Part shown: positions 1,523 through 30,652 of the stretch, one piece after another
Numbering within the stretch: position 1 is the stretch's first letter
Layout of the letters: the number at the start of each line of letters is the position of its first letter
Assembly: GCA_948435375.1 (NCBI GenBank)
Contig: CAOJGQ010000001.1
Location: forward strand, 1-34,948
DNA from: an uncultured Candidatus Saccharibacteria bacterium
GTDB lineage: Bacteria > Patescibacteriota > Saccharimonadia > Saccharimonadales > Saccharimonadaceae
DNA length: 34,948 nt
Reading direction: 5' to 3'
Position numbers and translations under genes: made by a program
Notes under the pieces: generated by a model
What the model was told of the DNA's origin: nothing
Databases searched by the model: none
The model's input: the letters and a program-made list of their open reading frames with translations, nothing else

Positions 1523-1741
1523 CTAAGTTTTCCTGACCATAAAGCCATAAAACCGCGCAAAATTTGCCGAAGCCTGAAGATCGGGAATATAGAAAAAGAG
1601 ATTATAAGCATTATAGACCGACGCATAAGCCGCACCAGACCAATGCAACCCACTATAACCAGCTCCTCTAATCGAGCCAGACACCATATCTAGATTCCCG
1701 CCACGAGTTAGATATATAGGAGATAACGGATATGTTTGACG
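1523..1741 (-). pseudogene. 3'-end fragment of a Fib_succ_major domain gene (minus strand), beginning with the shared 27-bp core
   Basis: On the minus strand, YPLSPIYLTRGG is followed by SGSIRGAGYSGLHWSGAAYA, VYNAYNLFFYI and FYGFMVRKT, then TAG at 1525-1523. This is the end of a Fib_succ_major domain (Trp-containing turn, then G-F-x-V-R). The SPIYLTRGG codons (1723-1697) are identical at the DNA level to a repeat at 30338-30364. The frame is intact to its stop, but no start codon with a ribosome binding site exists upstream. It is a silent or decayed 3' piece. Confidence 0.65.
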
Positions 1742-1748
1742 TCTACTT

Positions 1749-2006
1749 TTTCTGCTTCTGCTTGACGAAGAGAATACTGCAACGAAGTCTACAACAAAAC
1801 TTTGACTGTTGCCTCTGGTTTTTCGATTTATGTTTTGACGAAGGAGGATCCGGACTTACGAGGAGGAAGAGCGCGCCATACCCGTAACGACGGGATATGG
1901 CGACGCGCCTCCTTCGCAAAATCAGAATCGAAAAACCAAATTACAAACAACCAAGTCTAACATACAGGCCTCATTACGATATTACTTCGTCAAGCAGAAT
2001 CAGAAA
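1749..2006. repeat. Large imperfect palindrome downstream of the muramidase gene
   Basis: The two arms run from 1749 to about 1887 and from about 1888 to 2006. Matching blocks are 1749-1770 with 1985-2006 (21 of 22), 1816-1828 with 1926-1938 (13 of 13), 1839-1847 with 1908-1916 (9 of 9) and a core hairpin at 1875-1901 (GCCATACCCGT with ACGGG-A-TATGGC). The left arm carries about 20 extra bases next to the core. The right tip overlaps the muramidase stop codon (2000-2002). It could fold as a very long transcript hairpin. It has no recognisable transposase and no target-site duplication. Confidence 0.75.
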
Positions 2007-3274
2007 TACCAAACATCAATATCAACATCTCCCTGTATCCCCTCAATCCTCCCCGTATCACACAGCTGCCAAATCCCATATTCGCCCACATATGTCACCT
2101 TGTCATGATATTGTGCCAGCCACACCGACGTCTTTCTCGGTTGCCAAATCTTCTCCAAATAATTTTTGCTCCCATAGAGCCAACCCTTATAGCCCTCCTT
2201 CGCTAACTCCGCCAAGAACTCCTGTGCCACCCGATTAACCGTCCGAAAACTCATCCCTGCCTGGTTAAAATTCTTCCAGTCCTCCCAGTCAAACGCCACG
2301 CCCAGTTCAATCTCATAGCCCCGAATCTGCTCCGCTACCCACGCCGCCTGCTTTTTCGCCTCCTCAATGTTATTAGCATAAGAATAAAAATACACACCCA
2401 CCGGCAATCCAGCTTTAAGCGCCTCCTGAATATTGCGTTCAAAAAACTTATCTACTACATACTCCCCGCCGTAGCCCACTTGATAACCTAACCGAATGAA
2501 AGCAAACTCCGCCCCCGCTTTCTTCACCTTCGCCCAATCAATCTCACCTTGCCAGCTCGAAACATCAATCCCGACTTTCGTCCGCTCGTTTTTATAATCA
2601 GCCTGCACCTGCGCAAAATCCTGCTTCGGTCGCGTCGCCACGGTCGACGCACCTCCCCCTGACTTCACCGGCTCCACCACTTTTAGCTGAAATGCTTGAC
2701 GCGTTTCATTACCGCCCGCATCCCGAATCACATACTCAAGATCATACGTCCCAACTTTTCCCAGATCATACTCACCCGCAATTTCTCGCACCGGTTCATC
2801 ATCCAAATCGTCCCCACTCAACATTAAATCCGTCAAATTACCATCATAGCCTTTCTCCACCGTATAACTCGGCAAACCATAAATCACTGGCGCCACCTTA
2901 TCCACCACTTTCACCGTAAAATTATACGACCGCTTCCGCCCCCGAACATTAATATACTCAAACCCCACTTGCTGTTCACCCAGCTCATCCGTCTTCACTA
3001 CTGTGTTATCTACTAGCTCACTATCCAATCTCGCCAAAAAGTCTGAGATTCGCACCTCCTCCCCGTAGCCAACTTTCAACTCCTCCACCAACCCAACCGA
3101 CTCCACGTCAAGCCGTCGCATTTCTGCCGCATCATATATAATATATCCCACCCCAGCCAGCAACGCTAAAAGCAAACCTGAACCGACCAAAAGCCAAACT
3201 CGTCGCCGTTTCAAAAGCCCCTTCACTGACCGTTTGTTTGTCGGACCCACCGTTGTTTCTGGATGATACTCCAT
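2000..3274 (-). CDS. Membrane-anchored GH25 muramidase (lysozyme) with an Ig-like domain
   Basis: The 424-residue protein has a basic N-terminus, one membrane segment at about 29-49, then an extracytoplasmic stretch with a DUF5011-like bacterial Ig fold at about 120-205 (KVAPVIYGLPSYTVEKGYDG), a short linker, and a glycoside hydrolase family 25 domain from about 233 to the end. The GH25 signatures are GIDVSSWQGEIDW and the DxE catalytic pair in AFDWEDW; the domain ends in DVDIDVWYF. GH25 enzymes cut the MurNAc-GlcNAc bond of peptidoglycan. Here the enzyme is tethered outside the cell and could remodel its own wall or act on the host's. The ATG at 3274 sits about 7 bp after a TAAAAT -10 box, so the mRNA is probably leaderless. 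Confidence 0.9.
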   Translation of the reverse strand: MEYHPETTVGPTNKRSVKGLLKRRRVWLLVGSGLLLALLAGVGYIIYDAAEMRRLDVESVGLVEELKVGYGEEVRISDFLARLDSELVDNTVVKTDELGEQQVGFEYINVRGRKRSYNFTVKVVDKVAPVIYGLPSYTVEKGYDGNLTDLMLSGDDLDDEPVREIAGEYDLGKVGTYDLEYVIRDAGGNETRQAFQLKVVEPVKSGGGASTVATRPKQDFAQVQADYKNERTKVGIDVSSWQGEIDWAKVKKAGAEFAFIRLGYQVGYGGEYVVDKFFERNIQEALKAGLPVGVYFYSYANNIEEAKKQAAWVAEQIRGYEIELGVAFDWEDWKNFNQAGMSFRTVNRVAQEFLAELAKEGYKGWLYGSKNYLEKIWQPRKTSVWLAQYHDKVTYVGEYGIWQLCDTGRIEGIQGDVDIDVWYF

Positions 3275-17156: not shown

Positions 17157-17699
17157 TTATACGTACAGTTCTGCCTTGTTCTTTAGTTGTTCGGCATCTT
17201 CCTGTTCAAGCGTTTTGTAAGAAAAAACATGCCCTTCAACTACACGCCCCAAAATGAGAGAACATCGGACAACATATAACCAGACTTCATCAGAAGGCTT
17301 CGGAATATACCCGTCCGCCGCCGGCATTAAAAGTGTGCCAGTCAAAGAATCATCACCCCAATAAATCATCCAGCCGCCCGATTCAGCAGCAACTCGACTA
17401 ATCGTATTTATTTCAAACTTCTTCCTACTACCATTATCAATCTTATTCACGCCGAACGCCTGCTCCCGTAGATACCTTTCATCTGCCCCAGGCAACCGAC
17501 TTGCAACTAACGCTATAACATGTTCCGCTAGCTCCGCGTCTTTATCCCGTTTACACGAATGCGTCTTGATGATTTTATATAAATCATCAATGATTCCCGA
17601 ATCATTGTCTTTCATTGCCACCTTCGCGACTTTCCAGGTCATTCTTGGCATTCTCCGCTGCAAATCTCTTACCTTTTCCGTTCTGCTCAATCTTCTCAT
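17157..17699 (-). CDS. Protein of unknown function, 180 aa
   Basis: ATG 17699 lies behind TTAGGAGGGA. The N-terminus is basic (MRRLSRTEKVRDLQRRMPRM), followed by an apparently globular, soluble middle and a mixed C-terminal half (SGGWMIYWGDDSLTGTLLMP, then WLYVVRCSLILGRVVEGHVF). No signal peptide and no known domain are seen. It forms a single-gene unit with promoter P3, a leader holding a short upstream frame, and its own terminator. Confidence 0.65.
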   Translation of the reverse strand: MRRLSRTEKVRDLQRRMPRMTWKVAKVAMKDNDSGIIDDLYKIIKTHSCKRDKDAELAEHVIALVASRLPGADERYLREQAFGVNKIDNGSRKKFEINTISRVAAESGGWMIYWGDDSLTGTLLMPAADGYIPKPSDEVWLYVVRCSLILGRVVEGHVFSYKTLEQEDAEQLKNKAELYV

Positions 17700-17754
17700 T
17701 TTATCCCTCCTAAGAATAATTTTATAAGAAAAACTTACTTACTAGCTCTAGACC

Positions 17755-17787
17755 TTACAGTTCATCTGGATATAGTGTCTTTATCAT
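17755..17787 (-). CDS. Possible 10-aa leader peptide
   Basis: Within the ~150-nt leader of the 17157-17699 gene, AAGGAGG is followed after eight bases by ATG 17787 and the frame MIKTLYPDEL, then TAA. An earlier ATG (17791) in another frame gives MHDKDTISR. Such a strong ribosome binding site ahead of a short frame is unusual and suggests translation-linked control. Confidence 0.35.
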   Translation of the reverse strand: MIKTLYPDEL

Positions 17788-17856
17788 GCATAATTCCTCC
17801 TTCTTAAAATGCTACCTACTTTTCTAAGAGGCCAAAAACACACCCCCATACCTCCC

Positions 17857-17884
17857 ATTATAGCATACATTACTAAAAAGTCAA
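17857..17884 (-). promoter_or_regulatory. Promoter P3 of the shared type
   Basis: TTGACT (17884-17879), a 16-bp spacer ending ATGTATGC and TATAAT (17862-17857), followed by GGGAGG and GGGGGTGTG as at P2. Confidence 0.83.
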
Positions 17885-17912
17885 TACTACAAGAATAAAA
17901 ATACTTTTAATA

Positions 17913-18320
17913 TTGACTAATAAATCTATATCCAGGAGAAATTTTCCGTATCCAAAACAACTGGGATTTATTTTTTCCGCTACCAGTAGGCGCAATTTTG
18001 GTATATTAATCCCTAAACGCAATATCAAGAACCATTCGCTACGATATTGTATTAATGAAGGCGTAGAAGAACGTTCATATTTCATTCTAGAATTCGGCGA
18101 ACGCCTTGTTTCGAATCAGACCGTAGCTGATATGGAATTTCGACGAAAAGTAGCCATCGAAGAATATAATCGACTACGCCAAGGCGAAGCTCCTACCAGC
18201 CCCGATCAGACACTGCTTGGTGATTTTAAAAGCCCGAACCCGTCTGAAAATTGCCTCTATCACAGCCAGAGGTTTAAGGAACAAAACGCTGAAACTCTGG
18301 CGAGTTACCTCCAATCTTGA
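17913..18320 (+). CDS. Hypothetical protein, start uncertain
   Basis: A 135-codon frame opens at TTG 17913 and ends with TGA at 18320. AGGAG at about 17934 is not followed by a usable start, so the true start may be internal; ATG 18133 is the only internal Met with useful length. The better-looking part is MEFRRKVAIEEYNRLRQGEA and what follows. A strong terminator overlaps the stop, which supports transcription through this frame. No family is recognised. It is divergent from promoter P3 and could be a shortened gene. Confidence 0.4.
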   Translation: MTNKSISRRNFPYPKQLGFIFSATSRRNFGILIPKRNIKNHSLRYCINEGVEERSYFILEFGERLVSNQTVADMEFRRKVAIEEYNRLRQGEAPTSPDQTLLGDFKSPNPSENCLYHSQRFKEQNAETLASYLQS

Positions 18321-18345
18321 GCCGCATTATGCGGCTCGTTTTTTT
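18318..18345 (+). terminator. Rho-independent terminator
   Basis: GAGCCGCA (18318-18325), TTA loop, TGCGGCTC (18329-18336), G, then eight Ts. It overlaps the stop codon of the preceding frame. Confidence 0.88.
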
Positions 18346-18387
18346 TGTTTTGTTTTTTGCTATACCGAAACACATATCACATAGTTA

Positions 18388-18416
18388 TTGACTTACTTGG
18401 AAATTTATCATAAAAT
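18388..18416 (+). promoter_or_regulatory. Promoter of the 18455-19543 gene
   Basis: TTGACT (18388-18393), a 17-bp spacer and TAAAAT (18411-18416). Confidence 0.65.
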
Positions 18417-18454
18417 AAAGGTGTAGCAAATTTAGAACATAAGGGGGAATTTTT

Positions 18455-19543
18455 ATGGACAATCAAAAAGCTACTGAAAATAGCACCTTAACTTACACAC
18501 TAGGGAAGCACGAAAATTATCTTGAGCTAAACTATCTTGAGTTTCTGTTTGATTTTGCATCACATTTTGTTGTAGAACTTAACAGCCTGCACAACAATAA
18601 TCAATTCGAGAAGGTAACATGGCTCGAAAACATCACCAGATACCCAACTACGCTTCGTGAACACCTCTGCTACGCCGCACTCCACAGTGACCAGATGCTC
18701 GATGCCACACCAACTAAACAACGAACCTATCCTTTCGAAGAATTAAGACCAACTGAAAGGCAAAAACATTTTTTTTCTGATACTTTGAAAAGATGTTTAA
18801 ACCTAGCTGACGACTTAATTATTTTGGAAATCATGATTAATCACTATCAGACAGATATCATTCAACCACTCCAAAATATGCAAAGTGAGCTTAGTGCCAT
18901 GATCAACCAGTTGACCAAACTCCAGACTGACTGTCAAACCGAAAATCTCAAGATGGCCCTAAACGACTTAACCGGAACATATTTTGCATTACTCGAACAA
19001 CAGCTCAAGAGTATCGACTGGCCTCTCACTAATTGTCAAACTGCAGTCAACAAAACCGCCAAACAATATCACGCACTTTGGCAACTAGCGTTTGAAAACA
19101 CGATCAAGACACGAAATGAACAGCTCAACGACAAACATGAAGGCATAGAGATGGTGCGAGACATCCAGCCAAAAATTGACCAAATTTGGCGAAAACTGCT
19201 CGTAAAATCAGGCCAAACTCTCAAAATCGACGAAATCTCTATAGAGGATCTAACGAACTTTCGTAACAAAATTTACAAACTTCGTATAAAGATTTACGAG
19301 TGTCACACGAGGCACTATCCTCGAGAAGAAAAGGTGGCTAAAAGCCTCAAAGACATCCAATACGAAAGAGTTACCAATCCAGTCAGTCAGATTAAATTGT
19401 TACTCGAAGATTTTGATCGCGAATACCAAAATGGCCTTGATTTTTTCAACAAAGCTCGAAAAGAACAATCCAACTTCATACCAATGGCCGCTAAAACCAT
19501 CAACTTCGCCAAGCTTTCCTTTGAACACTTGTTTTGTTGTTGA
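18455..19543 (+). CDS. Helical protein of unknown function, 362 aa; intact copy of a duplicated family
   Basis: ATG 18455 follows AAGGGGGAA. The protein has no signal peptide; it is rich in Gln, Asn, Lys and Leu and predicted helical, with probable coiled-coil from about 110 to 200 (LQNMQSELSAMINQLTKLQT). It ends in a short aromatic/Cys tail (FEHLFCC) and TGA. The first ~125 residues have a clear decayed paralogue at 26281-26681 (shared pattern NLTYTLGEH, then the LREH-YYATLNS region). It has its own promoter and terminator. Function is unknown. Confidence 0.65.
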   Translation: MDNQKATENSTLTYTLGKHENYLELNYLEFLFDFASHFVVELNSLHNNNQFEKVTWLENITRYPTTLREHLCYAALHSDQMLDATPTKQRTYPFEELRPTERQKHFFSDTLKRCLNLADDLIILEIMINHYQTDIIQPLQNMQSELSAMINQLTKLQTDCQTENLKMALNDLTGTYFALLEQQLKSIDWPLTNCQTAVNKTAKQYHALWQLAFENTIKTRNEQLNDKHEGIEMVRDIQPKIDQIWRKLLVKSGQTLKIDEISIEDLTNFRNKIYKLRIKIYECHTRHYPREEKVAKSLKDIQYERVTNPVSQIKLLLEDFDREYQNGLDFFNKARKEQSNFIPMAAKTINFAKLSFEHLFCC

Positions 19544-19555
19544 ATACCCAACAAC

Positions 19556-19589
19556 AAACCTCCAGCTAGTATATATGCTGGAGGTTTTT
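19556..19589 (+). terminator. Rho-independent terminator of the 18455-19543 gene
   Basis: AAACCTCCAGC (19556-19566) pairs with GCTGGAGGTTT (19577-19587), followed by further Ts. Confidence 0.88.
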
Positions 19590-19625
19590 CATTTTCCCAA
19601 AACCTTAACCTTTTCCAAACTTTTC

Positions 19626-19635
19626 ATGCTATACT
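19626..19635 (+). promoter_or_regulatory. Probable promoter of the arginine gene cluster
   Basis: An ATGC-TATACT extended -10 ends at 19635, 30 bases before ATG 19666. The -35 region is poor. Confidence 0.5.
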
Positions 19636-19665
19636 ATTACTAATAACCATAAACGAGGTGTGGAA

Positions 19666-20661
19666 ATGGATTTTACGGGGCGTGACTTTTTGCAAATATT
19701 AGATTTTAGTCCAGACGAGCTGCGCTATATGCTCGACGTCGCTAAAGTTTTCAAAAACTACAAAAAGACTGGCCAAAGTCACAAATATTTTCCTGACAAA
19801 AATGCTGTACTGATTTTCGAAAAGACTTCCACTCGCACCCGTTGCAGCTTTGAAGTGGCCTGTCACGACCTTGGTATCGGCACTACCTATCTCGACCCCA
19901 GTGGCTCGCAAATGGGACACAAAGAATCCATCGCCGATACCGCGCAAGTCCTCGCTAAACTTTATGATGGCATCGAATATCGTGGCTTCGCTCAAAAAAC
20001 CGTGGATGACCTCGCGAAATACGCCGACGTTCCAGTTTGGAATGGCCTCACTGACTACTGTCATCCTACTCAAGCCCTAGCAGACTTTCTCACCATCGAA
20101 GAACATTTCGGCAGTCTCGACGAGCTCACCGTCGCTTATCTCGGCGACACGCGCAACAACGTTGCGAATTCCCTCATGGCTATGAGCGCCAAAATGGGCG
20201 TAAACTATATCGGTTGTGGACCCGAAGTACTTAAACCTGATACCAAATTACTCAAGCAATGCCAAGAAGTTGCTGCTCAGACTGGCGCCCAAATCACCAT
20301 CACATCAGACTTACAGACCTTAGCAAACACCGCCGACGTGATTTATACCGACGTCTGGCTCTCAATGGGTGAGGACAAAGCCAAATGGCAAGAACGTATC
20401 GACCAACTAAAACCTTACCAAGTCACCATGGATGTCATGAATCTCGCCGGGCCAGACGCCATCTTCATGCATCCATTACCATCCTTCCACGACCTTGAAA
20501 CTTCCGTCGGTCGTGATGTTCATGATAAATTCGGTCTCAGTGAACTCGAAGTAACGAACGAAGTCTTCAATTCCAAGCGCTCACTCGTCTTCGAGGAAGC
20601 GGAAAATCGCATGCACACCATCAAAACCGTGATATATTTAACTTTAAAAGGTAGGGAATAA
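19666..20661 (+). CDS. arcB: Ornithine carbamoyltransferase (probably catabolic, ArcB role)
   Basis: 331 residues from ATG 19666, with GAGGTG just upstream; the longer GTG start at 19660 lies within that site. The carbamoyl phosphate motif STRTR is at 55-59, followed by HPTQALAD, the ornithine loop DVWLSMGE and MHPLPSFHD near the C-terminus. The last usually reads H-C-L-P in this family; here Pro replaces the Cys that lines the ornithine site. In the arginine deiminase pathway the enzyme splits citrulline to ornithine and carbamoyl phosphate. Adjacency to arginine deiminase and an antiporter-type carrier supports the catabolic role. Because of the altered motif, another transcarbamylase specificity cannot be excluded. 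Confidence 0.87.
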   Translation: MDFTGRDFLQILDFSPDELRYMLDVAKVFKNYKKTGQSHKYFPDKNAVLIFEKTSTRTRCSFEVACHDLGIGTTYLDPSGSQMGHKESIADTAQVLAKLYDGIEYRGFAQKTVDDLAKYADVPVWNGLTDYCHPTQALADFLTIEEHFGSLDELTVAYLGDTRNNVANSLMAMSAKMGVNYIGCGPEVLKPDTKLLKQCQEVAAQTGAQITITSDLQTLANTADVIYTDVWLSMGEDKAKWQERIDQLKPYQVTMDVMNLAGPDAIFMHPLPSFHDLETSVGRDVHDKFGLSELEVTNEVFNSKRSLVFEEAENRMHTIKTVIYLTLKGRE

Positions 20662-20666
20662 TTACT

Positions 20667-21899
20667 ATGAAAAGTACTATTTGTAACTTTAGCGAAATCG
20701 CACCGCTGAAAAAAGTTTTGATGCATCGCCCCGGCGACGAATTTCTTAACCTTACGCCCGGAACACTCGAGCGTCTACTCTTCGACGACATCCCCTATCT
20801 CAAAATCGCCCAGCAGGAGCACGATGCTTTCGCGGGTGCCTTACGTGCCGAAGGCGTGGAAGTGGTTTATCTCGAAGATCTCATGGCTGAAACCCTCGAC
20901 AACGCTCCAGCCAGTGTCCGCAAAAACTTTCTCAAACAATTCATCGCCGAAGCAGGCGTCACTTCGCCCAAAATCGCCAAGCATTGTTACAATTTCCTGA
21001 ATGGCTACAAAGACAACCGTGAAATGGTCAAAAAATGCATCACTGGTATCGACATTTTCGAGCTTAAGCGTCTTAGCGGCGTCTCCGGTTTTTACGCTAC
21101 TCGCGACACCGGCCGCATGATTATCGACCCCATCCCCAACCTTATCTTCCAGCGCGATCCTATGGCTACCATCGGCTACGGCGCCACTTTACACAAAATG
21201 TGGGCGCCCACCCGCACCCGCGAGTCAATTTTCGCTGAATATATTTTCAAATATCATCCCTTCTACGAAGACACCAAACTCTATTACGACCGCACCGAAC
21301 CCTATTCGCTCGAGGGCGGCGACATCCAAGTTCTCTCACCCGAAGTAATCGCGATTGGCATTTCCCAGCGTACTGAGCCCGACGCCATTGCCGAATTTGC
21401 GAAAAATCTCTTCGCTGACCGAAAAAACACTTTTAAATATATCCTCGCCATCGACATCCCGGACGAGCGCAGTTTCATGCACCTTGACACTGTCATGACC
21501 CAGGTCGACACGGGCAAATTCGCCGTCCAGGATGCCATCATGGACATTTCCACCATCTACGAAATCACCAAGGGCCGCGGCAGCGAACTCGAAATCGTCG
21601 AAAATCGCCAAAGCCTGCAAAAAGTCCTCGAAAAATATCTCCATCTCCCCCGCGTTGAGCTGATCAAATGCGGCGACGGTCGTCGCATTGCTGCTGAGCG
21701 CGAACAGTGGAGTGACGGTGTGAACCTGCTCTGCGTCCGTCCCGGCGTCGTCATCGCTTACGACCGCAACTTCGTCACGAACGAAAACCTCCGTCGTCAC
21801 GGCGTCACCGTAATCGAAATTCCTAGCTCAGAAATTTCCCGTGGCCGCGGTGGCTCGCATTGTATGGCAATGGCACTCGTGCGCAAGGAGGACAAATAA
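20667..21899 (+). CDS. arcA: Arginine deiminase
   Basis: 410 residues, the normal length. The guanidino-modifying fold motifs are in order: MHRPGDEFLNLTPG, DDIPYLKIAQQEHDAF, NLIFQRDPMATIGYG, EGGDIQVLSPEVIAIG, FMHLDTVMTQVD (catalytic His and Asp) and RGRGGSHCMAM with the nucleophilic Cys. It converts arginine to citrulline and ammonia. It starts five bases after arcB, so the two are co-transcribed. Small deviations from the family (FQRDP for FTRDP, GGSHC for GGPRC) leave the catalytic residues in place. Confidence 0.95.
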   Translation: MKSTICNFSEIAPLKKVLMHRPGDEFLNLTPGTLERLLFDDIPYLKIAQQEHDAFAGALRAEGVEVVYLEDLMAETLDNAPASVRKNFLKQFIAEAGVTSPKIAKHCYNFLNGYKDNREMVKKCITGIDIFELKRLSGVSGFYATRDTGRMIIDPIPNLIFQRDPMATIGYGATLHKMWAPTRTRESIFAEYIFKYHPFYEDTKLYYDRTEPYSLEGGDIQVLSPEVIAIGISQRTEPDAIAEFAKNLFADRKNTFKYILAIDIPDERSFMHLDTVMTQVDTGKFAVQDAIMDISTIYEITKGRGSELEIVENRQSLQKVLEKYLHLPRVELIKCGDGRRIAAEREQWSDGVNLLCVRPGVVIAYDRNFVTNENLRRHGVTVIEIPSSEISRGRGGSHCMAMALVRKEDK

Positions 21900-21944
21900 T
21901 TTCATAAACTCGAAAGCCCCAAAGCTAAACCAAGAAAGGAAACT

Positions 21945-23702
21945 ATGCCCAAAAAGAAGAAAAAAGAACGTCAAAAAAGTCGTCGCTCAATGCTCTCGGC
22001 TTATTCGATTATTATGATCTTAGTAATCGCACTCGGAATTATCTCGCATCTCCTGCCAAAAGCCGAATTCACCCCGCTACCGCCCGAAGAAGTTAGCGAA
22101 GAGATTACTGTTGAAGAGGAGGCAGTTGATAACGAAACCGACATCGTCCCGACGAACGAAATTTCAGCCGAGACCACTGTTGAAACTCACGAGGCCACAG
22201 CTACCGAAAACAGTGTCGAGCCAATTAATGATACAGTGGTAAACGGTGTTGACGTTGAGATTAAAGACGGCGAAGTAGTCGAGCAGCCCGATCTCGTGGT
22301 TGACGAACCCGAATCGGCTGAACTACCCACCTTCGCCAGCCTCGAGGAATGCGAAGAGGAAACCGGCGGCGAATGTGCTATTGTCGACGGCTCCGGCGTG
22401 GTTGGCGCCAAGCTCTGGCAAATCCTCATGGCCCCAATCCTCGGTTTCGAAAACGCCATTGATGTCTGTATTTTCATCATGATCCTCGGTGGTTTTCTCG
22501 CTATCGTCGCGAAGACCAAAGCCCTCGAAAACGGCGTCAAATTCTTAGTCAAAAAACTCCACGGCAAGGAATATCTCCTGATTGTCTTGCTTATGCTCAT
22601 CTTCTCGGTCATGGGGACGACTTACGGCTTCCTCGAGGAAAGCGTCGGCTTCTACGTCCTCGTCGCAGCCACCATGTTCGCCGCTGGGCTCGATCCGCTA
22701 GTTGGTGTCGCGACTATCTTGCTCGGTGCTGGCTCCGGCGTACTCGGCTCGACCATCAACCCCTTCGCCACCGGCGTCACACTCTCAGCCATGAAAGATG
22801 CCGACATTCCTTATGACCAAGGCCTAATCATCCTCATCGCCACCATTCTCTGGCTCACCACCCTCGCAATTTCCATGTTCTTCACCATCCGCTACGCCAA
22901 AAAGGTCCAAAAGAACAAAGGCTCGACTTTTCTCAGCCTGCGCGAACAAGCTGCCGCCGAAAAAACTTATAATCAATATCTCGAGTCCAAAGAAGACGAT
23001 GACAGCCTTTCTGCACGCCAGAAAATCACCTTGGTAATCTTCGCCCTCACCTTCCTCGTCATGATCGTTGGCTTCCTGCCTTGGGGCGAGTTCGGCATCG
23101 AATTCTTCGATAGCTGGACTGGCTGGCTGACCGGCGCCACGCTCGGCAACTGGTGGTTCTACGAAGCTGCCCTCTGGTTCCTGATCAGCTCGATCATCAT
23201 TGCCATCATCAACCGCACCGGCGAACGTGGCTTTGTCGACACTTTCATCAGCGGCGCTGGCGATATGATTGGCGTTGTCCTCGTCGTCGCAGTGGCGCGC
23301 GGCGTCTCCGTCCTCATGGGTCAGACTTTCCTCGACAACTTCATCGTCTTTAATGCTTCGAACTTCCTCGCCACCCTCCCCGAAATGGCCTTCGTCCCGC
23401 TCAATTATCTCTTGCATATCGTCCTCTCGATTCTCGTGCCGTCTTCCTCTGGCCTCGCCACCATGTCTACTCCAATCATTGCGCCAATCGCCAACACGCT
23501 TGGCTATAGCACCAACGTTACCGCCATGACCATCGTCGCCGCCAACGGCCTTGTCAACCTCATCGCTCCAACTTGCGGCGCCATCATGGGCGGTCTCGCT
23601 CTCGCCAAAGTTGACTATCCAACCTGGTTCAAATGGGGCATCCGCGTCGTTGGCGTCATCGCCGTAGTCAACATTGTCATCCTCTGCCTCTTCTCACTCT
23701 AA
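21945..23702 (+). CDS. arcD: YfcC/ArcD-type basic amino acid carrier with an acidic insert
   Basis: 585 residues. A Lys-rich start (MPKKKKKERQKSRRS) is followed by one membrane helix (~18-38), then about 110 highly acidic, low-complexity residues ending in a segment with two Cys (CEEETGGEC), and then the polytopic carrier. The carrier part matches the C4-dicarboxylate/YfcC family (GTTYGFLEESVGFYVL, VLGSTINPFATGV, VPSSSGLATMSTPI and PTCGAIMGG). With arcA and arcB as neighbours the likely cargo is arginine in exchange for ornithine. The acidic insert between the first two helices is not typical of the family and would lie outside the cell. Confidence 0.85.
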   Translation: MPKKKKKERQKSRRSMLSAYSIIMILVIALGIISHLLPKAEFTPLPPEEVSEEITVEEEAVDNETDIVPTNEISAETTVETHEATATENSVEPINDTVVNGVDVEIKDGEVVEQPDLVVDEPESAELPTFASLEECEEETGGECAIVDGSGVVGAKLWQILMAPILGFENAIDVCIFIMILGGFLAIVAKTKALENGVKFLVKKLHGKEYLLIVLLMLIFSVMGTTYGFLEESVGFYVLVAATMFAAGLDPLVGVATILLGAGSGVLGSTINPFATGVTLSAMKDADIPYDQGLIILIATILWLTTLAISMFFTIRYAKKVQKNKGSTFLSLREQAAAEKTYNQYLESKEDDDSLSARQKITLVIFALTFLVMIVGFLPWGEFGIEFFDSWTGWLTGATLGNWWFYEAALWFLISSIIIAIINRTGERGFVDTFISGAGDMIGVVLVVAVARGVSVLMGQTFLDNFIVFNASNFLATLPEMAFVPLNYLLHIVLSILVPSSSGLATMSTPIIAPIANTLGYSTNVTAMTIVAANGLVNLIAPTCGAIMGGLALAKVDYPTWFKWGIRVVGVIAVVNIVILCLFSL

Positions 23703-23752
23703 AAAAGTCCGATACAGGCTAGAGCCCAAAAACCATAAAAGAAAAGGCATGA

Positions 23753-23786
23753 AAAAAGAGGTCCAAATTTCCGGGCCTCTTTTTTC
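23753..23786. terminator. Bidirectional terminator between arcD and the 23808-25076 gene
   Basis: AAAAAAGAGGTCC (23753-23765) pairs with GGGCCTCTTTTTT (23774-23786), giving a T tract on both strands between two convergent genes. Confidence 0.92.
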
Positions 23787-23807
23787 AGGGGGAATTAAAA
23801 TCAAACA

Positions 23808-25076
23808 TTACTTCATGAAACCATATCTCTGCAATCGTTCAACTGCTAGTCCGTATAACTTCGGGTCGACATAACGCAAACCAGAAAACCGATTTGTATC
23901 CGAACAAACCGCCATCAAACCTCCAATTGTCTTAATTTCATAGTGATCCGAATCATTCAAAAGTTTATAAGCACGTTTACTCCAATCTAATGCCACGATT
24001 GTGCTCTTCTCGTCAGGATAGCACAGCTCGGGTGGCATCACAATCTGCCACTTCTTCATGCAATTCATCAGTTCACTGAGCAGACCATGGCCAAAGTTTC
24101 GCACTTTTAATAGCTGCTGCCGAGCACTATTCACCCCCTCCGCGAAGAGCGCCATGAACTTTTGCACCGTAGCAGTATCACTACGCGATAAACAGCGGGC
24201 AGTTCGTCTCGATAGACCTAACGCAGACTCAGACTCAAACGGATGATCTAAACTATCTTCCCAACCAATCTCAACCATCCCTTCTGTAGACAACTGACCC
24301 TCTCGTTGTAAAACCGACGTGATTACCGACCACTCCCATAGAGTAATCTCCACATGAGTATCAGCAAAGTTATCGAAATTGCTAAAATATTCCACCGCCT
24401 CAGCCACTGTTTCAATTCCGAGCTCTTGCAAAATTTTTAGACTACGCCACGACCAGCGCAGTTGTAGAATCGACCCATCCGGCGGAACATCATTTAATGC
24501 TTCCACGGTCAGCTCCGCACGCTCTTCTCGCTCTCGAATTTCTTCCAGCAATGTTTCAATCCGCGCTAAAGCTTGATCACGCCGAAAGTTATAGTAGCGC
24601 ACCTCTTCCATCAACTGTTTTACTTCATTCATCAACTCCGGGGTCTCATTGCTCATCTGACGATTAGAAGCCGTAGACTCCACGTCCTCAACCAGCTTCT
24701 CGACCGAAATTCCTGGCCGGCCAATTAGTATATACCGTATCCTACTCGTTTGTAAGAACTCGACCGCCTCCAGAAAGCATCTCCACACCGAACCCCAATA
24801 ATCTCTCTCAAGTTGACTTTCCATCATTATTGACTCTTGCACATATCCCAATGTGCGCTGCAGAGCATATCCACTGAGATCTCCATAAGGCATTTCCTCC
24901 AGCGCTTCAAAGACGTGATCAAGCATTTTCTCCCGGCATCCCAATTCATCGAAAACCGGCCCCTTACCTCGTAGTGCAATCTCATCTTCCAGTTCGAAAG
25001 CTATCACATAGACGCTCTCTTCGAAAGACAGGCCAAAACTCTTCATTTTCCTAACATCGACTACTCTTTCTGACAT
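23808..25076 (-). CDS. Protein with three RpoA C-terminal-domain-like modules, unknown function
   Basis: 422 residues from ATG 25076 behind AAGGAGGAAGG. Residues 1-190 are helical, with a coiled-coil-like stretch at about 140-190 (MNEVKQLMEEVRYYNFRRDQ). Three modules resembling the helix-hairpin-helix of the RNA polymerase alpha C-terminal domain follow, at ~204-259, ~283-340 and ~360-420. The middle one is clearest: LGLSRRTARCLSRSDTATVQ, then LLKVRNFGHGLLSEL, compared with the alpha-CTD pattern L-x-L-S-x-R-x-x-N-x-L and K-x-x-N-x-G-x-x-S. Such modules bind UP-element DNA and activators. A role as a DNA-binding or polymerase-associated factor is an inference. It is a single-gene unit under promoter P4. 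Confidence 0.6.
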   Translation of the reverse strand: MSERVVDVRKMKSFGLSFEESVYVIAFELEDEIALRGKGPVFDELGCREKMLDHVFEALEEMPYGDLSGYALQRTLGYVQESIMMESQLERDYWGSVWRCFLEAVEFLQTSRIRYILIGRPGISVEKLVEDVESTASNRQMSNETPELMNEVKQLMEEVRYYNFRRDQALARIETLLEEIREREERAELTVEALNDVPPDGSILQLRWSWRSLKILQELGIETVAEAVEYFSNFDNFADTHVEITLWEWSVITSVLQREGQLSTEGMVEIGWEDSLDHPFESESALGLSRRTARCLSRSDTATVQKFMALFAEGVNSARQQLLKVRNFGHGLLSELMNCMKKWQIVMPPELCYPDEKSTIVALDWSKRAYKLLNDSDHYEIKTIGGLMAVCSDTNRFSGLRYVDPKLYGLAVERLQRYGFMK

Positions 25077-25180
25077 TTTCCTTCCTCCTTGTTCATGTAC
25101 TTATTCTTTTGGCAACATTCTCAGAATAAAAATCCTAAAGATCTTACTCCGAAAAGCTAGAATACATAGCCTATCCCCTC

Positions 25181-25209
25181 ATTATAGCACACATCGTGAG
25201 AAAAGTCAA
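25181..25209 (-). promoter_or_regulatory. Promoter P4 of the shared type
   Basis: TTGACT (25209-25204), a 17-bp spacer ending ATGTGTGC and TATAAT (25186-25181), followed by a GA-rich start as in P1-P3. Confidence 0.85.
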
Positions 25210-25258
25210 GCATCCTAGCCGGTTTCTCCGCAAAACCTTTCATAAACCCTCAATTTAC

Positions 25259-25308
25259 CGTGAAAAATAGCCAAAAAACTTGATTTTTCACGTAAAGTTT
25301 GCTAAAAT
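25259..25308 (+). promoter_or_regulatory. Fic gene promoter with a 10-bp inverted repeat over the -35 box
   Basis: -35 TTGATT (25280-25285), a 17-bp spacer and TAAAAT (25303-25308). ATG 25315 falls on the predicted start point, so the mRNA is probably leaderless. A perfect inverted repeat CGTGAAAAAT / ATTTTTCACG (25259-25268, 25283-25292) straddles the -35 box and looks like a repressor operator. Confidence 0.6.
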
Positions 25309-25314
25309 ATTCTT

Positions 25315-26199
25315 ATGATTAACCAAGTCACCAGGGCCAAAATTGACCAGCTCGCGGCTACATACCGCAAATTAACCCATGAATACCCCGATGCAATCCG
25401 CGAAATTACTCTCTCCGAACTCCCAGAAATGGTTTATAACTCTAACGCTATTGAAAATTCCACCCTCACTCTCGAAGATACCGAAGACATCTTGATCCGC
25501 GACCAAATTCGCAGCGACCACGAAATCCGTGAAATTTATGAGGCCAAAAATCTCGCGAGAGCCATGGAATATCTCATGGATAATCCCGAGCCGCAAATCT
25601 CTGTCCAGCTAATCCTAAAGCTCCACCATATCCTACTTAGCAATATTCGCGACGAAATCGCTGGACGCTTCCGCTCCGGCAAAGAATGGGTACGCGTCGG
25701 CACACATATTGGCGCCAACCCTGAATTCGTCAACAGCCTAATGTATGATCTAGTCGAAAATTATAACCACCATCAAGAGCAGCATTTTCTCGAAAAAATT
25801 GCCTATTTCCATGCCGAATTTGAGAATATCCATCCTTTCGGAGACGGCAACGGCCGTATCGGTCGCCTACTTACCAATGAGCAACTAGACCTCCTCGAGC
25901 TGCCACCAATCATTATCCCCAACAAGTCCAAATTCGACGAATATTATCCTGCTCTTGATGAATACACTAAAGTCAACAAAGCCGACCAGCTCACAGAACT
26001 TTTTGCTAAATTACTCATTGAAGCGCTCCATCGTCGGATTACTAAACTCACAGCCAGGAAAATCATCCCTCTCGCCGACTGGGCCAAGGAGCACAATCTC
26101 AATCCACAATCCGCCACCAACAAAGCTATTCGCGGCACCATTCCCGCTTTTCGCATGCGCGGTCATTGGATGATTGACGCTAACTATGAACCTTTATAA
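25315..26199 (+). CDS. Fic-domain protein with N-terminal inhibitory motif and C-terminal HTH-like domain
   Basis: 294 residues. The Fic active site HPFGDGNGRIGR begins at residue 173 with the catalytic His. The N-terminal motif SNAIEN (~42-47) fits the S/T-x-x-x-E-G/N inhibitory helix of class II Fic proteins. The C-terminal ~50 residues (IPLADWAKEHNLNPQSATNK, then a short wing ending MRGHWMID) look like a small winged-helix DNA reader. Fic enzymes transfer AMP or related groups to protein hydroxyls. The HTH-like tail together with the palindrome over its own promoter suggests autoregulation. The target is unknown. Confidence 0.88.
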   Translation: MINQVTRAKIDQLAATYRKLTHEYPDAIREITLSELPEMVYNSNAIENSTLTLEDTEDILIRDQIRSDHEIREIYEAKNLARAMEYLMDNPEPQISVQLILKLHHILLSNIRDEIAGRFRSGKEWVRVGTHIGANPEFVNSLMYDLVENYNHHQEQHFLEKIAYFHAEFENIHPFGDGNGRIGRLLTNEQLDLLELPPIIIPNKSKFDEYYPALDEYTKVNKADQLTELFAKLLIEALHRRITKLTARKIIPLADWAKEHNLNPQSATNKAIRGTIPAFRMRGHWMIDANYEPL

Positions 26200-26280
26200 T
26201 GGCACTCTAGACTTTTTCTCCGTTTTAGCATAAATTACTAGAGTATCCAAGTAGCACAACATAATATAAGGGGAAATTGT

Positions 26281-26681
26281 ATAAACAATACTAAAGACGC
26301 TACCGAAAATCGTAACCTAACCTACACTCTGGGAGAACACTCGGACTATCGTTGTTCGATTACTACGGGTTTTTGTTCAACTTCACTTCACTTTTCACGG
26401 CTGATTGCACAGTCCTCAGGCAACAAGAAAATCTTGCCGGCACCGATTGGCTCACCGAAATCATTGAACACCCCACTAATCTGCGCGAACATATCTACTA
26501 TGCCACGCTAAATAGCAATCAAGCTCTCGACGCTCGACCGGTTAAAACCAATCTCCAAGGCAAAAAGCTTGAACGCACACCTAGACAAAATTTATTTTTC
26601 TCTGGGATCTTCGATACTATCATGAAGCGCTCGAAAAAGCCCCAGGAGATCCGGAGACCAAAATCAGCCCAGAAAGTGTAG
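26281..26681 (+). pseudogene. Decayed paralogue of the 18455-19543 gene (start lost, frameshifted, truncated)
   Basis: Aligned by eye with the intact gene, the ribosome-site region (AAGGGGAAATTGT) is kept but the start codon reads ATA in place of ATG (26281-26283). The frame then reads NTKDATENRNLTYTLGEH and shifts frame near 26350. It continues as YYGFLFNFTSLFT, DWLTEIIEHPTNLREHIYYA and LNSNQALDARPVK, parallel to the intact protein's first ~125 residues. It ends at TAG 26679-26681, about 230 residues short. It lies just before the rplF promoter. Confidence 0.75.
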
Positions 26682-28935: not shown

Positions 28936-29412
28936 CAATATAACGCCGCCGTTGCTGGTAGTCTTAGCACAGCCAATTTTACTAGCGGAACAATTGCTGA
29001 CACGACCGATTCTATCTGTCCAAAAGGCTGGGAGTTACCAATCAGTAGACGCAACCTAGACTCTGTTTCACCTGATTTCGGTTTACCGATCGACCAAAAC
29101 AAAAGCTTCTATAATTTGTTCGCCGCCTACGGCTATACTATTGATCAATATCAAAAAACTCATAATGTCAGTTACGCCAATGTTTTATCTGGCCAATATC
29201 AAAATCCTCTTCTCAAACCCTTTTATGCTACAATCACCGGCACCGTTGAACACAATAACCAAAGAATCGGCTACTCATTTTACGGCTTCCTCTGGAGTAA
29301 ATCAGCCATCGGACCCGATGCTGACATGAACGCTCTTATCACTCCCGCCCTATATCTCGTCAACAACTCGGGCATCGGCACGGGTTTTCCGATTCGATGC
29401 GTAACCAAATAA
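28936..29412 (+). pseudogene. Fib_succ_major domain remnant lacking its N-terminus
   Basis: From just after a TAA (28933-28935) the frame runs 158 codons: YNAAVAGSLSTANFTSGTIA, DSICPKGWELP, NLFAAYGY, FYGFLWSKS and the terminal GFPIRCVTK. This is the order of the Fib_succ_major domain: an A-A-x-A-G-S entry, the S-I-C-P-K-G-W-x-L-P signature, a Trp near the end and V/I-R-C. Signal peptide, N-terminal part and start site are missing. The rplO terminator is immediately upstream, so it is probably silent. Confidence 0.75.
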
Positions 29413-29432: not shown

Positions 29433-30077
29433 CTACCCGACGTTCACTTTCTTCACTGGATGCCGAATCACCGTTCTCAACTTACTTACCTCGCATCTGC
29501 GTGGATCACTCAAATAAATCTCATGGTGCAACCTTTTCTTCGATAAGTCAATCTCATAGCTATTTTCTTCCGCAAACTGCCGCATCAAGTCCACAGTTTT
29601 CGGCTCATCATCATAACTCCCCAGATGCATACACTGCACCGCAACCCCCTCATCATACGACCAAAACTCCACTTTCGAAAAATCCTGCCTCTTCTTTCTC
29701 GTCGCTTCCGCGATCGCCCAGTCAAAATCCCCCTTCGATACAAAATCCGGCAATCTGATAGCCGAAATAAACTGCAAATCATCTTTTCGGTTATAATCAA
29801 TCCCGGTTTTATTGCCATCTTGCCACCAAAACCCCTCCAGCGGCGGCACCACATAGTCAAAATACCCCGCAATTTTATGCTCGCTTTTCTTGCTCATTTT
29901 GATCGTGAAAGCAATTGCATAAAGCAAACCGATCGAGGTTTTATACTCACCATTCTCATCATTCGGGTTGCCCGCGCCCCGTACCGCAAGATAATTTATC
30001 ACCGGAACAGTCACGATACTCGGCTGATTTTTCGGCAAATAAAATTCCTTATACTCCTTTTTAAAATCAAACGCCAC
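29433..30077 (-). CDS. GyrI-like small-molecule-binding domain protein
   Basis: The start is set at GTG 30077: the ATG at 30083 directly abuts the GGAGGT site, while GTG is spaced six bases from it, and homologues I recall begin with the following residues AFDFKKEYKEFY. The 214-residue protein has NYLAVRGAGNPNDENGEYKT, FTIKMSKKSEHKIAGYFDYV and the end KLRTVIRHPVKKVNVG, typical of stand-alone GyrI-like proteins. The fold binds small hydrophobic or cationic compounds in multidrug regulators; free-standing members have no settled role. It lies between Fib_succ_major remnants. Confidence 0.85.
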   Translation of the reverse strand: MAFDFKKEYKEFYLPKNQPSIVTVPVINYLAVRGAGNPNDENGEYKTSIGLLYAIAFTIKMSKKSEHKIAGYFDYVVPPLEGFWWQDGNKTGIDYNRKDDLQFISAIRLPDFVSKGDFDWAIAEATRKKRQDFSKVEFWSYDEGVAVQCMHLGSYDDEPKTVDLMRQFAEENSYEIDLSKKRLHHEIYLSDPRRCEVSKLRTVIRHPVKKVNVG

Positions 30078-30155
30078 GCTCATACCTCCAATTCTATATC
30101 AATAACCTACTTCTTCATTATATAACATTTATACCAACTTAGAGATTTCGCATCG

Positions 30156-30364
30156 TCAATGGCCCAATCGACTAAAACGAACCCTAAAGCCAACCCAACG
30201 ATAATCGCGATACGCCGGCAAAATTGCCCCATCCGTAAAATTAAGATCATAAGACATAAATTGCGTCAGCGCCGTATTCGACCAAAAGTAGCCCGACCGC
30301 CCAGATGTTCGCAGCGCCCCATAGTCCAAATAGACAAACCCGCCACGAGTTAGATATATAGGAG
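30156..30364 (-). pseudogene. Fib_succ_major 3' fragment (minus strand), frameshifted
   Basis: Starting with the shared core (30364-30338, SPIYLTRGG) the minus strand reads FVYLDYGALRTSG, then needs a one-base shift near 30300 to continue SGYFWSNTALTQFMSYDLNF, DYRWVGFRVRFSRLGH and TGA (30158-30156). The motif order (Y-F-W-S-N-T, then G-F-R-V-R) is the end of a Fib_succ_major domain. There is no start codon or upstream domain. Confidence 0.65.
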
Positions 30365-30446
30365 AATCGTAGATATATATTATATATTTGTGAAATCTAT
30401 ACCAAAATATCTCCAGAATATTCTATATATCTAACTCGTGGCGGGT
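30336..30446. repeat. 25-bp perfect inverted repeat at the head of two divergent Fib_succ_major fragments
   Basis: 30336-30360 and 30422-30446 are exact inverted copies, separated by 61 bp of AT-rich DNA. Each copy encodes IYLTRGG at the start of a 3' fragment pointing outward. A third copy (27 bp identical to 30338-30364) is at 1697-1723. Confidence 0.9.
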
Positions 30447-30652
30447 TGATATATTTGGAGAATGGCTCTTTGTGGAGCGCAGGGATAATTGGTTATCATA
30501 CATCATCAACCACCTATCATTATCCCGATTACATATTTATCTATGTATTAAATTCAACCAAAGCATTTGCAGGATACGACGGCTATCGTCCGAATGGCTT
30601 TACGGTCCAACCAAAAACAAAAACCTTCATATCTAAACCAAGTATGCTATAA
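30422..30652 (+). pseudogene. Fib_succ_major 3' fragment (plus strand), in frame
   Basis: The core repeat is followed in one frame by LIYLENGSLWSAGIIGYHTS, YHYPDYIFIYVL, DGYRPNGFTVQPKTK and a stop at 30650-30652. The Trp-turn and the final G-F-T-V-Q fit the Fib_succ_major end. No start or ribosome binding site is visible. Its stop codon overlaps the -10 box of secY. Confidence 0.6.

Follow-up and report, generated by a model that had tools for sequence, protein, structure and literature searches.

Diversity-generating retroelements (DGRs), as described from Bordetella phage, Treponema denticola and CPR/Patescibacteria, combine a reverse transcriptase, a template repeat (TR) with AAC codons, adenine-specific changes in a variable region (VR) at the 3' end of a surface-type gene, and an accessory gene beside the reverse transcriptase, and are common in CPR bacteria (PMC8144416). 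In silent-cassette gene conversion, exemplified by Neisseria pilS/pilE, Borrelia vls and Anaplasma msp2, one expressed gene is accompanied by many promoterless partial copies that keep the reading frame and share conserved boundary sequences, whereas integron gene cassettes are small units with fixed ends. DGRs are regarded as makers of new variants without memory, and silent-cassette systems as memory without a maker. The genome described here carries a DGR together with some 80 startless copies of its VR, bounded by fixed DNA ends at which cassettes have been exchanged, so that the cell appears to keep a library of alternative tips for a surface protein.

The starting point was a 34,948-nucleotide stretch of DNA (the window; contig CAOJGQ010000001.1 of assembly GCA_948435375.1, positions 1 to 34,948) from an uncultured Candidatus Saccharibacteria bacterium, an assignment that its gene content also suggests, in which an earlier note had described two outward-facing, startless Fib_succ_major-type gene ends headed by a 25-bp perfect inverted repeat. 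That observation holds, and is far larger than first described. Both arms of the repeat encode IYLTRGG and begin reading frames without a start codon, which end in GFRVR on the minus strand and GFTVQ on the plus strand; a repeat search gives 50-nt arms at 84%. One detail requires correction: the minus tail has the conserved Trp (GYFW), whereas in the plus tail this position is not Trp (GYHT). The features are collected in the table, in which C numbers denote contigs of this genome (C1 is the contig of the window), G numbers other genomes of the genus and L numbers individual loci.

Table. Positions of the cassettes, their boundary sequences, the DGR components and neighboring features.
Location	Strand	Feature	Remarks
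Window 30181-30361	-	Silent VR-like cassette 1 (diverged type)	Core, then IYLTRGGFVYLDYGALRTSGRSGYFWSNTALTQFMSYDLNFTDGAILPAYRDYRWVGFRV; no start codon; profile match 1.1e-22
Window 30423-30606	+	Silent VR-like cassette 2 (diverged type, looks mosaic)	Head as in C8:20990, tail as in C8:21361; no start codon; profile match 1.8e-20
Window 30337-30361	-	5' core arm of cassette 1, CTATATATCTAACTCGTGGCGGGTT	25 bp, shared with cassette 2; first 23 bp are the genome-wide fixed core
Window 30423-30447	+	5' core arm of cassette 2	25 bp
Window 30362-30379	-	Degenerate 18-bp motif just upstream of the core of cassette 1	Consensus AAAACATCTCCnAATCTC; positions -18 to -1 carry clearly more information than the bases further upstream
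Window 30405-30422	+	Same degenerate 18-bp motif upstream of cassette 2	
Window 30596-30608	+	Fixed 3' end of cassette 2	GGCTTTACGGTCC
Window 30181-30191	-	Fixed 3' end of cassette 1	GGCTTTAGGGT
Window 1536-1719	-	Third silent cassette in the window	Upstream flank identical to that of C9:8507 although the bodies are unrelated
Window 1720-2007; C1:60776-61064; C5:13841-14096; C9:8508-8747		Repeat of ~230-290 bp with inverted ends	Ends CTTCGTCAAACAGAAGCAGAAA
Window 17157-26681		Block of ~9.5 kb with ornithine carbamoyltransferase-, arginine deiminase- and YfcC-type antiporter-like genes	Interrupts the ribosomal protein operon between rpsH and rplF; ORFs 18455-19543 and 26352-26681 near its ends look, by eye, like partial copies of each other
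Window 28936-29412		Startless C-terminal piece of a second Fib_succ_major-type gene	Ends RCVTK; lacks the core
Window 29433-30083	-	GyrI-like gene	Next to the preceding piece
C11:30349		Start of the Fib_succ_major-type target gene	Runs into the contig end
L050 928-1944		338-aa ORF upstream of the DGR reverse transcriptase	DGR accessory protein of unknown kind
C16:3650-3837	-	Template repeat (TR)	NVNITTGSLRNAGNNGNYW..NNNNRWNGFTVRCLA
C4:44067-44849		RecA	1.2e-141
C12, L056 253-1275		Second reverse transcriptase	Beside a phage terminase-like gene
G040 C63:1200-4700 (L116)		Cluster of about six cassette-like units	Each followed by CGCTGCCTTTGCTGTGCCCGATCTCC or a close variant

The core CTATATATCTAACTCGTGGCGGG is not a chance repeat. 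The 15-mer GAGTTAGATATATAG occurs 71 times in the 908,884-bp genome against 0 for the reversed control, and TATATATCTAACTCGTGGCGG, with up to two mismatches allowed, occurs at 86 places (control 0; chance expectation for an exact match, 4.7e-7). Three of these are gene-end copies (C10 end, C11:12027 and C16 start), and the rest are startless cassettes of ~184 bp. Each copy starts a frame IYLTRGG-xxxxxx-GSLRxAG-xxGYYWxSTAY...RWxGFTV, and the unit runs from the core to the fixed 3' end GGCTTTACGGTCC, beyond which there is no similarity except the degenerate 18-bp motif just upstream. All copies with a recognised 3' end have the same length modulo 3, and none has a stop codon (79 copies, 4731 codons), although a few copies are broken (C2:86446, C8:18532). 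The cassettes are mostly intergenic: only 7 of 79 overlap an ORF of at least 150 aa, and only 17 of 79 have any in-frame start-like codon within 100 bp, such that, unlike a DGR VR, they do not lie within the coding sequence of a target gene. Of the neighboring pairs less than 400 bp apart, 14 are tail-to-tail, 9 tandem and 8 head-to-head. The L15-SecY gap that holds the paired window copies is 1836 bp here, against 78 bp in G013 and 441 bp in G023, both without a cassette core, so the window copies are insertions of this lineage; no GyrI-like gene was found upstream of SecY in the relatives checked.

The earlier note would have been refuted had no full-length Fib_succ_major gene carried the core, and this condition does not refute it. 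A gene with a signal-like N terminus and a weak Fib_succ_major match runs into the end of C11, and contig C16 begins inside the core with an in-frame VR ending RCLAK-stop. C16 continues with the 338-aa accessory ORF, a 412-aa reverse transcriptase (RVT_1, 5.9e-11) and, on the other strand, a template reading NVNITTGSLRNAGNNGNYW...NPSNNNNRWNGFTVRCLA with AAC/AAT codons. The order target-accessory-reverse transcriptase-template is found in many relatives, and the target is contiguous in relatives such as G009, G030 and G084; C11 and C16 therefore very probably form one locus, although this join across an assembly gap is inferred. DGR reverse transcriptases carry a motif 4 of the form [ILV]GxxxSQ and a YxDD box, and the C16 enzyme reads IGNLTSQ and YVDDF. 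The accessory ORF has no significant Pfam, NCBIfam or PHROG match but is conserved at 42-50% in several relatives at the same place. The three gene-end copies differ from the template at 13, 13 and 16 of 51 adenines and at 0 of 123 other bases, as expected of a DGR. With respect to a C-type lectin fold of the variable domain, a structure model of the target domain was of too low confidence to use, and a sequence search found no solved relative. The second reverse transcriptase, on C12, is probably a prophage retroelement separate from the C16 system.

Of the 71 copies with the same length as the template, 37 are young (at most 16 non-A changes; 34 silent and 3 gene-end) and 34 are old (26-62 of 123 non-A sites changed). 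In the young set, 752 of 1887 A sites and 203 of 4551 non-A sites are changed, and without the gene-end copies the counts are 710 of 1734 (41%) and 203 of 4182 (4.9%), which indicates that these copies derive from DGR products. None of the 34 old cassettes has a stop codon, against 27.0 expected if neutral (minimum 21 in 400 simulations); the simulation assumes uniform substitution from the present template, so the expected number is approximate, but the gap is wide. In these old cassettes the end codons are fixed (ACT 34/34 and GGC 33/34; at the 3' end GGC 34/34 and TTT 33/33), while interior Gly, Leu, Ser and Arg codons are mixed. Protein is thus conserved inside and DNA at the ends. The template itself reads TTTTTGTTAACTCG where the cassettes read CTATATATCTAACTCG, so the outer part of the core was not copied from the template.

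Past exchange at the core is recorded in the genome. C1:1719 (the third cassette of the window) and C9:8507 have 100% identical upstream flanks, including the motif, but bodies only 40% identical and unrelated downstream DNA. Conversely, C2:40057 and C7:3688 have identical 161-bp bodies in unrelated flanks on both sides, as do C22:293 and C23:6939. The switch points are the core and the 3' end. Assembly errors at repeats could mispair a flank and a body, but would not create the several bodies that follow one flank sequence. The repeat with inverted ends sits directly beside many cassettes, with 13 near matches in the genome, nearly all next to a cassette, and might have helped to spread them. 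It is separate from the cassettes, however, which lack inverted ends (the 5' core and 3' end are not inverted copies of each other), and as it lies beside only some of them, the possibility that a MITE is the cassette itself was rejected. A palindrome, AACTTGTAACGGCGTTACAAGTT, occurs 14 times in the regions examined, most within about 100 bp of a cassette (C7:15483, C8:18179, C10:4833, C15:16927 and others).

A profile of the cassettes finds matches in 84 of 90 genomes of the genus, with large sets in G023 (at least 70), G042 (56), G039 (53), G061 (49) and G053 (44), counts that include ordinary VRs and templates. The core with up to two mismatches has only one further match, in G011, and other species (G023, G039, G042) have their own fixed ends. 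In the second species read in detail, G023, 44 cassettes have the fixed 5' and 3' ends, no stops and one length modulo 3 (44/44 in frame), and candidate template-VR pairs are A-biased, with the reservation that the G023 regions were chosen from profile matches, which favors intact copies. In the G040 cluster most units are spaced roughly 430-470 bp apart with similar spacers, forming an array rather than scattered copies. Reverse transcriptase relatives occur in 53 of 90 genomes, the closest in G039, G023, G040, G013 and G042. Scans of two further collections gave nothing: no reverse transcriptase was found in genome_contigs, and no exact core in genome_contigs or viral_contigs.

The interpretation in the earlier note, that the two tails are silent 3' cassettes able to recombine at the core into an expressed surface gene, is supported in part. 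They are silent 3' cassettes, a gene of the same family carries the core in frame, and exchange across the core has taken place; the note missed that the primary source of variation is a DGR, and transfer from a silent cassette into the expressed gene is not shown. In our reading, to which we give a probability of about 0.6, the two tails belong to a genome-wide archive of promoterless, startless VR copies. What the data establish is that a DGR has changed the VR at template adenines, that about 80 VR copies lie scattered in mostly intergenic DNA between the same 5' core and 3' end, that bodies have been exchanged between sites at those ends, and that the copies stay open and in frame even when strongly diverged. 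It is inferred, on the other hand, that the copies were laid down from DGR-diversified VRs or are partly overwritten in place by retrohoming, that the fixed ends serve as crossover homology for RecA (present in the genome), and that segmental recombination returns stored tips to the single expressed surface gene, giving two layers of variation, new writing by the DGR and recall from storage. Against recall, the three gene-end copies in this one genome contain only template-derived sequence, with no tract from a diverged silent cassette, and the expressed gene is broken by the assembly gap. The open frames could also mean that cassettes are constantly renewed from expressed VRs, here or in other strains, without ever returning, and the model does not extend to how a cassette first reaches a new site.

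Several alternatives were weighed against this reading. The cassettes could be dead-end by-products, VR copies thrown continually into intergenic DNA by DGR activity or recombination and never re-expressed, their open frames reflecting only recent origin from expressed VRs; the absence of silent-derived tracts in the gene-end copies and the closeness of 34 silent cassettes to the current TR are consistent with this notion. We consider it unlikely, as 34 others have diverged far without a single stop, with ends fixed at the DNA level while synonymous interior sites drift, which recent neutral copies would not show, and as a second species also shows fixed ends with no stops. Marginally better, though still doubtful, is the proposal that the silent cassettes are themselves direct targets of retrohoming, in which the reverse transcriptase writes mutated template copies into them in place, anchored at the 3' end, and matter mainly as extra acceptors. 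The A-bias is present in silent cassettes, and several mosaics (C8:20990, C23:6468, C15:5436, C2:79265) have an old 5' part and a template-like 3' part, as 3'-anchored retrohoming would leave. A general polarity of this kind was rejected, however, since only a subset shows it and it is weak over all cassettes (62 changes at 38 5' sites, 63 at 52 3' sites). In addition, silent cassettes lack the last 12 bases of the template (CCGGTGCCTAGC) that the expressed VR shares, and identical bodies at different sites with the same 16 A-changes cannot be independent retrohoming events.

Movement of cassettes as site-specific units, by a recombinase that recognises the core plus the 18-bp motif and inserts them at loosely matching sites in the manner of integron cassettes, appears less likely still. 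The motif belongs to the site rather than to the body, as identical bodies have different motifs, and it is conserved in degenerate form at about 77 distinct sites; but a search for tyrosine recombinases found only one, which looks like the housekeeping Xer protein, and no conserved motif was seen on the 3' side of the insertion sites here. Plain decay of a duplicated gene family, the alternative offered in the earlier note, could account for the lack of start codons, the intergenic positions and the few broken copies, but is contradicted by the stop-codon and end-codon tests, the identical DNA ends and the adenine-specific changes, and is very improbable.

In its boldest form, which we hold only tentatively and as slightly less likely than not, the system would be a memory written by reverse transcriptase, in which a DGR makes protein-tip variants, the cell deposits them as dispersed promoterless cassettes that selection keeps readable, and recombination at the fixed ends recalls them into one expressed surface gene, the scheme occurring in several species of a genus of tiny, probably host-dependent bacteria, each with its own end sequences. 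A genome that joins maker and memory would be a new design for variation in a bacterium with under 1 Mb of DNA, where about 1.7% of the genome goes to gene tips that cannot be expressed where they lie, and would make testable how such bacteria keep and reuse binding specificities and whether DGR output can be stored. No description of dispersed startless VR cassettes was found in the literature searched, which was limited, so the claim of novelty is provisional.

Compared with integrons, the units here are likewise small and mobile-looking with fixed ends, but they are parts of genes rather than whole genes, they are scattered, and no integron integrase was found. Compared with the pilin, vls and msp2 systems, several startless donors share fixed ends with one expressed gene, but the donors are DGR products, lie singly or in small groups rather than in one array, and have not been seen to pass into the expressed gene. 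Compared with described DGRs, the C16 locus is a DGR by its reverse transcriptase, template repeat and adenine-confined differences, whereas the dispersed cassettes are not ordinary DGR VRs. In the papers that could be searched, remote VRs are few and lie inside whole genes, as in T. denticola, with 2-7 target genes and at most one suspicious or truncated one (PMC4891356); here there are some 80 startless VR copies with fixed ends, half of them only distantly related to the present template.
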